This document shows positions 3,220 to 48,153 of a stretch of DNA of 55,104 nucleotides, piece by piece (position 1 is the stretch's first letter; each line of letters begins with the position of its first letter). The stretch spans positions 1-55,104 of the forward strand of contig JAJYTE010000014.1 in assembly GCA_021793215.1 (NCBI GenBank), read 5' to 3'. This DNA is from Bacillota bacterium (lineage in GTDB: Bacteria; Bacillota; Sulfobacillia; JAJZYS01; JAJYTV01). Position numbers and translations under genes: made by a program. The notes under the pieces are model-generated. The model was not told the DNA's origin. It made no database searches and worked only from the letters and a program-made list of their open reading frames with translations.

Positions 3220-3579
3220 TCACGGCACGCGGGTCGTTTCCCCCACCGCAAGCCTCGGGGCGTCGCCCCACAGGCGTTCAAGGTCGTAGAAGCGATGTGC
3301 CTCCGGCAGCATGACGTGCACCGCGATGTCCCGGAAGTCCGCCAGGATCCATTCGGCCCCTTCCTTGCCCTCACGGTGGTGGTAGCCTTCGATGCCCTCG
3401 CGCAACGCGTCAACGACCGCCTCCGACTGGATGCGGTTCTGCGTCGTGGCGATCACGAAGTAGTCTACGAATGGCGTGTGCTTGCGCACATCGAGCACGG
3501 TCACGTAGGTGCACTTGCGCTCTTGGCAGATCTCGGCCGCACGCCGCGCGAGCCGTGTACTCTCGTATTCCTTTGGGAT
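3220..3579 (-). CDS. rsfS: Ribosomal silencing factor RsfS, probable ATC start
   Basis: RsfS binds ribosomal protein L14 and blocks subunit joining when nutrients are scarce. The core DVRKHTPFVDYFVIATTQN, the EGxEGAEWILADFRDIAVHVM segment and the terminal FYDLERLWGDAP are diagnostic. The first ATG/GTG/TTG in frame is the GTG at 3504, which would give 94 residues and remove the first helix that the family has. The frame is open upstream to an ATC codon at 3579, eight bases after AGGAGG, giving 119 residues, the usual family length. The upstream residues (TRLARRAAEICQERKC before TYVTVLDV) fit the conserved N-terminal helix. I therefore favour the ATC start. It is the last gene of the rplU to rsfS operon, 13 bases after yqeK. 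Confidence 0.85.
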   Translation of the reverse strand: MPKEYESTRLARRAAEICQERKCTYVTVLDVRKHTPFVDYFVIATTQNRIQSEAVVDALREGIEGYHHREGKEGAEWILADFRDIAVHVMLPEAHRFYDLERLWGDAPRLAVGETTRVP

Positions 3580-45889: not shown

Positions 45890-46540
45890 CTACTCGGCCG
45901 CCTCAAGGCCCGACGGGGTGTCCGAGAGCCGCTCGAGCGCAGCCCGCAGCGCGGGGAACTCCTCGAGCACCAGGAGCGCGCCCGCCGCGCGTAGCGCATC
46001 CCCGCCGCTCCAGCCCCAGCCAGCCCCGATCGGCAGCATCCCGGCCGCGCGCGCCGCCAGGACGTCGGTGTCCTGGTCGCCGAGGTAGGCGCCACCGCCG
46101 AGGCCGAGCCGCGCCTGGGCCAGGAGGAGCGGCTGCGGGTTCGGCTTGTGCTGCGTGGTGTCGTCTCGGCAGACGACCACTTCGAACGCCTCCGCCAGCC
46201 GGGTCTGCCGCAGTTCGAGCTCCACCGCCCAGCGCTGCTTCGACGTGACGACGCCGAGGCGATGACCTGCCTTCGCCAAGGCGTGGAGCGTCTCGGGTGC
46301 GCCCGGAAACGGCCGCACAGAGGGCAGCGCCTCGGCGTACAGCGGTTGCATGTCCTGCCAGACCGAAAGGAAGAGCGCTTCGGGAAGGCCCGCGGCCGCG
46401 CCGTCCTGGGCGACGAGGAACCGCCGGACGAACGCCGGGTCAAAAGGCAGGCCGCGCCCACGCAGGGCGGCCCCGGCGGCGTAGGCGTGCGCGGCGCTCG
46501 TGTCGAGCACCGTTCCATCGAGATCGAAGAGCGCGAGCAA
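45890..46540 (-). CDS. HAD-superfamily hydrolase (phosphoglycolate phosphatase-like)
   Basis: A 216-residue HAD phosphatase: motif I FDLDGTVLDTS at residue 5, an alpha-helical cap, motif II VVTSKQR, motif III lysine in QHKPNPQPL and motif IV GDQDTDVLAA. This set matches the Gph/PpaX group; the substrate is not determined by sequence. TTG start at 46540. Confidence 0.88.
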   Translation of the reverse strand: MLALFDLDGTVLDTSAAHAYAAGAALRGRGLPFDPAFVRRFLVAQDGAAAGLPEALFLSVWQDMQPLYAEALPSVRPFPGAPETLHALAKAGHRLGVVTSKQRWAVELELRQTRLAEAFEVVVCRDDTTQHKPNPQPLLLAQARLGLGGGAYLGDQDTDVLAARAAGMLPIGAGWGWSGGDALRAAGALLVLEEFPALRAALERLSDTPSGLEAAE

Positions 46541-46643
46541 TCGAAGCCCCCCCGTTCCTGGCCTACAGTTCGCGCCCCGTCCCGACTACCCTCCCGGAAG
46601 GAGTCGTGGACGCGGGCGCCAAACTTGATCTGCAAGGGAGGCC

Positions 46644-47225
46644 GTCACTGCGGACGCCGACGAAACCCGCCCCGCGGCCGAGAACCTCAAGCGCCTGCGC
46701 GCAAACCTCGCGCCCCGCGTCTCCCTGCCGGCCGGCCGTCCGTCGGCCGTCCTCGTCCTTCTGTACCCGGATGCCGCCGACCTGCGGATCCTGCTGACGC
46801 GCCGCACCGACGACCTCGACCACCACAAGGGACAGATCAGCTTCCCCGGGGGCTCATGCGACGCGTCCGACGCCGACCACTGGGCGACCGCGCTGCGCGA
46901 GGCGCGCGAGGAGGTCGGGCTCTCGGAAGCACCGGAGCGCCTCGGCTGCCTGCCCGCCCAGTTCATCCCGGTATCCGGCTTCGCGATCGCTCCCTGCGTC
47001 GGCTTCCTTCCTCATTCTCCGTCCGTCCGCGCAGCCAGCGGCGAGGTGGCTGCGATCCTCGAGCCACCGCTCCAGGAGCTCTGGTCGCTCGAGGGCTGGG
47101 AGGACATCGCCACCCCGGCGGGCGGCGTGTGGCGCATGCCGGTCTACCCCTGGCGCGGCAACCGCATCTGGGGCGCGACGGCGCGCATGCTGCACACGCT
47201 GCGACGCGCGCTTGAGTCGCAGTAG
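46644..47225 (+). CDS. Nudix hydrolase (CoA pyrophosphatase-like), no standard start codon
   Basis: An open frame from 46629 to the stop at 47223-47225 encodes about 193 residues of a Nudix protein. LLTRRTDDLDHHKGQISFPG, typical of the YeaB/NUDT7 CoA pyrophosphatase group, precedes a complete Nudix box: GGSCDASDADHWATALREAR followed by EEVGL. The later region continues PVSGFAIAPCVGFLP and ends in IWGATARMLHTLRRAL, also typical. Upstream, ENLKRLRANL is the usual first helix. No ATG, GTG or TTG exists in frame before residue about 135; a TGA closes the frame at 46626. GGGAGG at 46636-46641 is well placed for a start around 46644-46650 (GTC, ACT, GCG). Either a rare start codon is used or the start has been mutated. 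The coordinates begin at the GTC. Confidence 0.75.
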   Translation, partial: VTADADETRPAAENLKRLRANLAPRVSLPAGRPSAVLVLLYPDAADLRILLTRRTDDLDHHKGQISFPGGSCDASDADHWATALREAREEVGLSEAPERLGCLPAQFIPVSGFAIAPCVGFLPHSPSVRAASGEVAAILEPPLQELWSLEGWEDIATPAGGVWRMPVYPWRGNRIWGATARMLHTLRRALESQ

Positions 47226-47226
47226 A

Positions 47227-48153
47227 TCAGTAGCCGCGCGCGCGGTCGACGAGGCCCATGAGCGCCTCGTCGGCGAGGTAGCGGCGCAGGTTCTCGGCGG
47301 CGAACGCGCCGACGCGCTCGAACTCGCTGGGCCCAGAGCAGTGGGCCGAGAGGTAGCAGTTCGCGAGGTCCCAGAGCGGGCTCTTCTCCGGCAGGGGCTC
47401 CTCGCGGAACACATCGAGTTGGGCGAAGGCGGGATGGCCGGCACGCAGCCCATCCGCGAGCGCATCCTCGTCGAGCGCGTTGCCCCGGCCGACGTTGATC
47501 AGGATCGAGCCCTCCGGCATCGCCTGGAACTCCCGCGCACCGAATAGGCCGTCGGTGGCCGGCGTCGCCGGAAGGACGAGCACCAGGTTCTCGACGCCCG
47601 CCGCGAACTCGCGCGCTTCGTTCGGCAGGAAGTGGCGGTCGACGATCGCCGCCTGCGCACCGCTGCGGCTGAGTCCCCAGACCTCCATCCCGAAGGCGCG
47701 GCCGACGGCGACGATCTCCCGACCGATCGCGCCGAGGCCGGCGACGCCCAGACGCTGCCCGCGCAGCGGCTGGGCCATGACCTTCTGCCAGCGGCGCTCC
47801 TGCTGCATGCTGCGTATCTTGAAGACGTCTCGGCGGATCGCGAGCAGGAAGGCGAAGACGTGCTCGGTCATCAGCGAGCTGAACGCGCCGACGATGCGCG
47901 TCAGCGCGACGTCCTCCGGCAGCGCGCGCACCACCTTGTCGACGCCAGCGCCAAGCCACTGCACCCAGCGGAGGTTGGGCATGCGCGAGGCGAGGTCCGC
48001 GGGCAGTCCCCAGGAGATGACGATCTCGGCATCGAGGTGCGCCATCGCCTCCTGGCGCGTCGACGCGGACGCGATTTCCATGTCCGGAGCCACTTTGTGC
48101 AGGATCGGAAGGTACTTGGCGGCATCGGCCGCGTAGACGAGAATTCGCGCCAA
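47227..48153 (-). CDS. D-2-hydroxyacid dehydrogenase (GhrA-like)
   Basis: A 308-residue NAD(P)-dependent dehydrogenase: WVQWLGAGVDKVV, RGQRLGVAGLGAIGREIVAVGRAFG (Rossmann GxGxxG), INVGRGNALDEDAL (Arg), DVFREEPLP (Glu) and SAHCSG in which a conserved His precedes Cys. The family acts on glyoxylate or hydroxypyruvate; the substrate here is unknown. TTG start at 48153 without a strong ribosome binding site. It converges with the Nudix gene, one base apart. A second member of the family is at 33529-34518, only distantly similar. Confidence 0.88.
   Translation of the reverse strand: MARILVYAADAAKYLPILHKVAPDMEIASASTRQEAMAHLDAEIVISWGLPADLASRMPNLRWVQWLGAGVDKVVRALPEDVALTRIVGAFSSLMTEHVFAFLLAIRRDVFKIRSMQQERRWQKVMAQPLRGQRLGVAGLGAIGREIVAVGRAFGMEVWGLSRSGAQAAIVDRHFLPNEAREFAAGVENLVLVLPATPATDGLFGAREFQAMPEGSILINVGRGNALDEDALADGLRAGHPAFAQLDVFREEPLPEKSPLWDLANCYLSAHCSGPSEFERVGAFAAENLRRYLADEALMGLVDRARGY

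Follow-up and report, generated by a model that had tools for sequence, protein, structure and literature searches.

A Nudix hydrolase gene, apparently under purifying selection, that lacks a standard start codon behind its Shine–Dalgarno sequence

How is a bacterial gene read when its coding frame is intact, its Shine–Dalgarno sequence is in place and no ATG, GTG or TTG stands between the two? The question is raised by an open frame of 198 codons on the forward strand (46629–47225, closed by TAG at 47223–47225) in a 55,104-nucleotide stretch of DNA from a Bacillota bacterium, here called the window. The window genome (G000) and three congeners (G001–G003) form genus g1, which together with its sister genus g2 (G004–G009) belongs to family f1. 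The features of the locus are as follows.

45890–46540, reverse strand: HAD-type phosphatase gene, divergent (name from motif reading)
46626–46628, forward strand: TGA, upstream limit of the Nudix frame
46634–46641, forward strand: Shine–Dalgarno sequence AAGGGAGG, with its GGGAGG part at 46636–46641
46644–46646, forward strand: GTC, in frame, 2 nt past GGAGG, an alternative start
46647–46649, forward strand: ACT, the start slot, 5 nt past GGAGG, putative start codon
46648–46650, forward strand: CTG, out of frame (+1), 6 nt past GGAGG; its frame stops at 46797
46647–47225, forward strand: Nudix hydrolase gene, predicted CoA-pyrophosphatase type, 192 residues counted from ACT
46668–46706, forward strand: predicted N-terminal helix, residues 8–20 counted from ACT
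46791–46853, forward strand: LLTRRTDDLDHHKGQISFPGG, which resembles the CoA-pyrophosphatase signature (motif compared by eye)
46851–46922, forward strand: Nudix box region, ending in REAREEVGL
47227–48153, reverse strand: D-2-hydroxyacid dehydrogenase-like gene, convergent (name by reading)

The earlier note on this DNA described a complete CoA-pyrophosphatase-type Nudix frame that is preceded by GGGAGG, closed upstream by a TGA at 46626 and devoid of in-frame ATG, GTG or TTG ahead of the Nudix box. All four points are borne out. The TGA and the GGGAGG are where they were said to be, the protein matches the Nudix profile PF00293 with 47.1 bits (cut-off 21.1), and the earliest in-frame ATG, GTG or TTG is GTG 47046, which lies downstream of the Nudix box and would give a product of only 59 residues. 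Between them, the TGA and the Shine–Dalgarno sequence restrict the choice of start to GTC, ACT, GCG and a few codons after these.

From sequence comparison and structure prediction, the product is a Nudix hydrolase, predicted to be of the CoA-pyrophosphatase type. Its nearest relatives of known structure, by sequence and fold, are the CoA pyrophosphatases of Deinococcus (1NQY/1NQZ), human (NUDT7) and Arabidopsis (NUDT11): the best match among solved structures by sequence profile is 1nqy (E 1.9e-32), and by fold the top eight Foldseek hits all belong to NUDT7, NUDT11 or 1nqz/1nqy. It differs from these enzymes in scoring 99.5 bits against the NCBIfam CoA pyrophosphatase equivalog NF007980, below the cut-off of 134, and for this reason we keep the identity to ‘CoA-pyrophosphatase type’. 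A second, possible difference lies in the stretch before the Nudix box, where we take the CoA signature to be LLTxR(S/A)xxxRxxxGxxxFPGG. Compared by eye with this motif, LLTRRTDDLDHHKGQISFPGG has T for S/A and D for R. In g1 relatives the latter position is likewise D, and in those of g2 it is A. The best of five structural models has a pLDDT of 86.7 (two of the five are poor); residues 1–6 fall below 50, and the block 11–20 reaches 92. This block is part of the predicted helix 8–20, and its Leu17, as well as Leu21, is invariant in 9/9 aligned sequences. Such a helix would need a start before ∼ 46668.

Judged by its pattern of change, the gene is real and under purifying selection. The dN/dS of the Nudix domain in the window is 0.18 against G001, 0.28 against G002 and 0.24 against G003; in the same four genomes the flanking genes give 0.20–0.38 (HAD-type phosphatase) and 0.18–0.28 (dehydrogenase), and rsfS gives 0.08–0.13. 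No internal stop interrupts the gene in the window or in G001, both of which retain the Nudix-box residues REAxEExGL, and it does not behave as a decaying gene would (dN/dS near 1, stops or frameshifts). Codon usage marks the frame as coding. Over the 27 codons from 46647 the Nudix frame scores +0.27 per codon, the two alternative frames −0.43 and −0.54; over codons 1–13 the values are +0.15 versus −0.40 and −0.48. The G+C coding pattern of the frame is absent upstream of the slot, and the coding signature thus starts at the slot. The surroundings are shared as well, with the phosphatase gene present in the Nudix locus of all seven f1 genomes examined and the dehydrogenase-like gene in six of them (partial in G004, missing in G005).

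Matches were found in 17 of 61 genomes, including 10/10 genomes of f1, and the start region was compared in one readable sequence per f1 genome (n = 10). The second copy in G009 (L012) is truncated at a contig end with its start unreadable and was left out, and the readable one (L022) is near-identical to that of G008, so that these two genomes are not independent. L012 resembles the G007 copy; as its two copies of the locus differ, G009 is perhaps a mixed bin of genomes. Three named records (L002, L003 and L004) have start regions identical to those of G001, G003 and G002, and were not counted twice. The Shine–Dalgarno sequence reads (A/G)AGGGAGG in 4/4 members of g1, and GGAGG is present in all 10 readable f1 sequences. 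The codons 2, 5 and 8 nt past GGAGG are GTC ACT GCG in the window, GCC ACA GCG in G001, GCC ATG CCG in G002 and GTC ATG GCG in G003. The sister genus has GTA GCT GTG (G005, G006, G007), GTA GCT CTG (G008, G009) or GTC TCT CTG (G004), and its start codon, GTG or CTG, sits one codon later than the g1 slot. Five different codons thus occupy the start slot of ten genomes (ATG 2, ACT 1, ACA 1, GTG 3, CTG 3), and the start codon is unconserved between species. Eight genomes have ATG, GTG or CTG there; the remaining two, the window and G001, have no near-cognate codon.

This comparison bears on two ways in which, according to the earlier note, the absence of a start might be only apparent: a start hidden by a frameshift and a sequencing error. 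A hidden frameshift finds no support: from GGAGG to the end of the slot the f1 orthologues can be aligned gap-free, with the ATG of G002 and G003 and the ACT of the window in one frame. As for an error that destroyed an ATG, the genome is a draft of 87 contigs, and the record that carries the G001 start region (L002) has a stated coverage of 1.3, so that the supporting sequence is thin. Nevertheless, G001 is a different species (69% identity) and is likewise start-less, with ACA in the slot, so that both assemblies would have to carry errors at two neighbouring bases. We therefore consider an error very improbable; most likely, the start codon is truly missing and not misread.

The same alignment, which is gap-free but covers a short stretch, suggests an order of change. 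The codon at +5 has C as its middle base in the window, in G001 and in each of the six g2 sequences that could be read. Only G002 and G003 have T there; for this reason ATG probably arose in their common ancestor and was not lost twice. The GTG or CTG at +8 appears to belong to g2, and an intermediate state with neither would then persist in the window and G001. Trees were calculated for 7/10 f1 genomes from seven concatenated proteins (some genes being absent in some genomes), from the same set minus Nudix and from Nudix alone. The G002 + G003 node has support values of 85, 63 and 88 in the three trees. The window and G001 are not sisters in any of them, and the nodes that separate the two are weakly supported (52, 54 and 73).

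We propose that the Nudix gene is still selected, that weak initiation at ACT (ACA in G001) is placed by the Shine–Dalgarno sequence, and that the start codon has turned over; we give this reading, our best explanation, a little under an even chance. The strong Shine–Dalgarno sequence at 46634–46641 would position the 30S subunit, the initiator tRNA would then be accepted, inefficiently, on a mismatched codon (ACT 46647–46649 here, ACA in G001), and the start codon of a gene still under selection would have been exchanged in the course of evolution. ACT is the likeliest start, at low efficiency, because it holds the orthologous position of the ATG in G002 and G003. Drifting between ACT and ACA, the codon in the slot shows no conservation as a special start. 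In favour of ACT, f1 has non-standard starts elsewhere (rsfS, infC, a uppP-like gene and an SDR gene, see below). Against it, ACT has two mismatches with the initiator anticodon, the middle base among them, and its 5-nt spacing from GGAGG is rare here (4/203 single-hit genes; in this G000 sample the spacing is 6–10 nt in 169/203 and 2 nt in 4/203). In addition, the weak constraint on the 21 codons ahead of the domain would suit a start further downstream equally well. We infer all three of translation itself, the use of ACT and a low output. A broader claim, that a bacterial gene can be initiated by its Shine–Dalgarno sequence on a codon mismatched to the tRNA and can persist in this start-less state for a long time across a genus, we advance tentatively, at clearly less than an even chance.

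The weak constraint just mentioned is one argument for a start inside the frame, at CTG 46695 (Leu17), CTG 46725 (Leu27) or nearby, which would give a shorter protein with a complete Nudix domain. Through LP, the 21 codons have a pN/pS of 0.91 in G000 versus its congeners, 0.71–0.77 among the others and 0.44 in g2. CTG starts occur in other f1 genes, both start-less species encode Leu17 by CTG where the two species with ATG use CTC or CTT, and G001 has an in-frame GTG two codons ahead of Leu17. However, across f1 Leu17 is CTG, CTC or CTT and so behaves as an ordinary leucine; no Shine–Dalgarno sequence was seen ahead of either CTG in the window, and the one at 46634–46641 has been retained. 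An internal start would also cut or remove the predicted helix 8–20, and coding composition persists in the first 13 codons. We regard such a start as unlikely, though it deserves to be kept in mind. A start at GTC 46644–46646 would be in frame and would have a precedent in Streptomyces sigR, for which GTC is a proven start (PMC5472188). It is a mere 2 nt from GGAGG, a spacing found in 4/203 genes, its position is GCC in the equally start-less G001 (and in G002), and in G003 the GTC directly precedes the ATG; the chance that this codon is used is small.

It is also conceivable that the gene is barely translated or not at all, being silenced, heading for loss or rescued by rare events only. The lack of a canonical or near-cognate codon in the slot points that way, and within g1 the window has the longest dN branch for Nudix, about twice that of G001, an excess that the two flanking genes do not show. 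The out-of-frame CTG 46648, which is well spaced, could moreover divert ribosomes into a dead-end frame. Yet dN/dS between the two start-less species is 0.18, no internal stop has arisen, REAxEExGL is kept and both species have retained the Shine–Dalgarno sequence. Because the slots of the window and G001 are two of three bases off ATG and ∼ 165 domain codons are intact, the gene is a poor fit to one that was recently broken, and we judge this reading, of little or no translation, to be distinctly unlikely. A programmed route would use that same CTG, either as a start followed by a frameshift or, by a different device, would edit C to U in the mRNA (ACU/ACA to AUU/AUA). The CTG has the usual spacing (6 nt past GGAGG) and f1 uses CTG starts; however, CTG 46648 has no counterpart in G001, no standard slippery heptamer was seen on reading the stretch, and we know of no C-to-U mRNA editing in bacteria. 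A route of this kind seems extremely improbable.

Does the organism have a device that would make ACT readable? Loss of IF3 can be dismissed: IF3_C is present in 10/12 genomes, that of the window included, and the two misses are genomes of limited completeness (G002, 82%; G008, 78%). The initiator tRNA, considered as a second candidate, is ordinary, with C1:A72, a GGG/CCC anticodon stem and two identical copies. Of 40 tRNA hits, 30 had loci that were scanned with ARAGORN, and in these no unusual anticodon was detected on an initiator tRNA; among the other 10, one or more (Tyr, contig C23) turned up in the locus of a neighbour. The threonine tRNAs seen have the anticodons GGT and TGT. With IF3 and an ordinary initiator tRNA present, we found no special decoding device.

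Upstream of the gene, a block at 46588–46625 (AGGAG, then CAAA ∼ 15–20 nt on) is conserved in part across f1. Compared with what we take to be the sigma-H-like consensus, the block suggested a promoter for an alternative sigma factor. This idea was rejected; two patterns of this kind occur upstream of just 2 and 1 of 574 genes. A sigma-70-like site was not found in 46400–47300, and we claim no promoter for the Nudix gene.

To place the Nudix gene among its peers, 705,871 of the 2,744,402 bases of G000 were surveyed. This sample holds 560 ORFs that scored well and are closed at both ends. In seven of them the stretch from −60 to +20 codons relative to the coding start is free of standard starts. 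We read three of these as gene-caller noise, which leaves rsfS and the SDR (short-chain dehydrogenase) gene, both with ATC, a glutaredoxin-like gene with ATC or CTG, and the Nudix gene. A second scan, for GGAGG near the coding start and no standard start from −12 to +40, returned 20/260 genes: seven with ATC or CTG in the slot, the Nudix gene, and 12 with neither, which we take as chance occurrences of GGAGG away from the real start. An apparent enrichment of ACT and ACA in start slots was also considered and set aside. Each occurs four times in 448 slots, above its coding frequency, but further rare, A/T-rich codons (AGA, CTA, AGT, CCA) rise too; we read the excess as sequence that precedes the start, not as a sign of start use. 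ATC, CTG and ACG are not enriched in these 448 slots.

One conserved case lies in the window itself.

3220–3579, reverse strand: rsfS, with ATC in the start slot at 3579–3577, 8 nt past GGAGG

The earlier note had counted the Nudix gene as the second case of its kind after rsfS. It was right that rsfS has no standard start, there being no in-frame ATG, GTG or TTG before its conserved part, but the two are different in kind: ATC is in the rsfS slot of 10/10 f1 genomes (G008 and G009 being identical there). The infC gene has ATC in 8/8 f1 loci read (10 loci were fetched, two of which, from other families, were unmatched by the script). Since orthologues show conservation, the lineage uses non-standard starts in several genes.

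Further observations concern single genes. Outside f1, rsfS of G012 (L034) has ATC at the same place with an in-frame TTG after it, and G011 and G015 have TTG. A uppP-like gene (name by reading; L107:5520–6359, reverse strand) has CTG in the slot in 9/9 loci read (L118–L126), from both genera, with an in-frame GTG five codons after the CTG, lacking a Shine–Dalgarno sequence, in the four g1 genomes. The SDR gene (L042:7349–8119, forward strand) has ATC, ATC and ATT in three close congener orthologues; that of G003 has an in-frame TTG two codons before the slot, 2 nt past GGAGG. The glutaredoxin-like gene (L106:6187–6444, reverse strand) has CTG in 3/3 g1 genomes and GTG or TTG in 6/6 of g2. Candidate CTG or ATC starts behind GGAGG are also present at L100:5273–7336 and L105:6176–7351 (reverse strand) and at L093:11486–12571 and L096:2884–3348 (forward strand); one of these four genes is Nudix-like by reading.

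Among known systems, infC, which encodes IF3 and uses AUU or AUC under autocontrol by IF3, is similar in that a strong Shine–Dalgarno sequence precedes a non-standard start. It differs in having a conserved near-cognate codon, whereas the Nudix slot varies by species and here holds none. Like genes whose starts are discriminated by IF3, the Nudix gene combines the lack of a standard start with a Shine–Dalgarno sequence in place; the codon with a single mismatch (ATC, ATT or CTG) is not there, the slot being ACT in the window and ACA in G001, with CTG only in G004, G008 and G009. All 64 codons are reportedly covered by Hecht's 2017 work in E. coli. The infC gene starts at ATT in E. coli and at ATC in Streptomyces, and Streptomyces sigR starts at GTC and is repressed by IF3 (PMC5472188). 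The sigR gene resembles the Nudix gene in a start two bases off ATG, in its mis-annotation and in a strong ribosome-binding site; mutation has proven its GTC, which Streptomyces species conserve well, whereas the Nudix ACT/ACA is unconserved and deduced from sequence. In the Chlamydomonas chloroplast, ACU was among the start-codon changes tested in petA (PMC9845219). Among the papers listed on ACU/ACA, CUG and AUC starts, titles and abstract openings contained no bacterial ACU or ACA start.

Gene callers that assume ATG, GTG or TTG would lose the Nudix gene or cut it to 59 residues. Because housekeeping genes of f1 (rsfS, the uppP-like gene and infC) keep non-standard starts, some genes are probably missing from the gene sets of such lineages. 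Its ATC would place rsfS, and with it ribosome silencing factor, under the start-codon discrimination of IF3, like infC. The start-less pair of Nudix genes offers a natural experiment on the extent to which a ribosome-binding site can replace a start codon. If our reading is true, start codons would turn over by way of a long-lived start-less state, in a lineage whose other non-standard starts include AUC, AUU and CUG.
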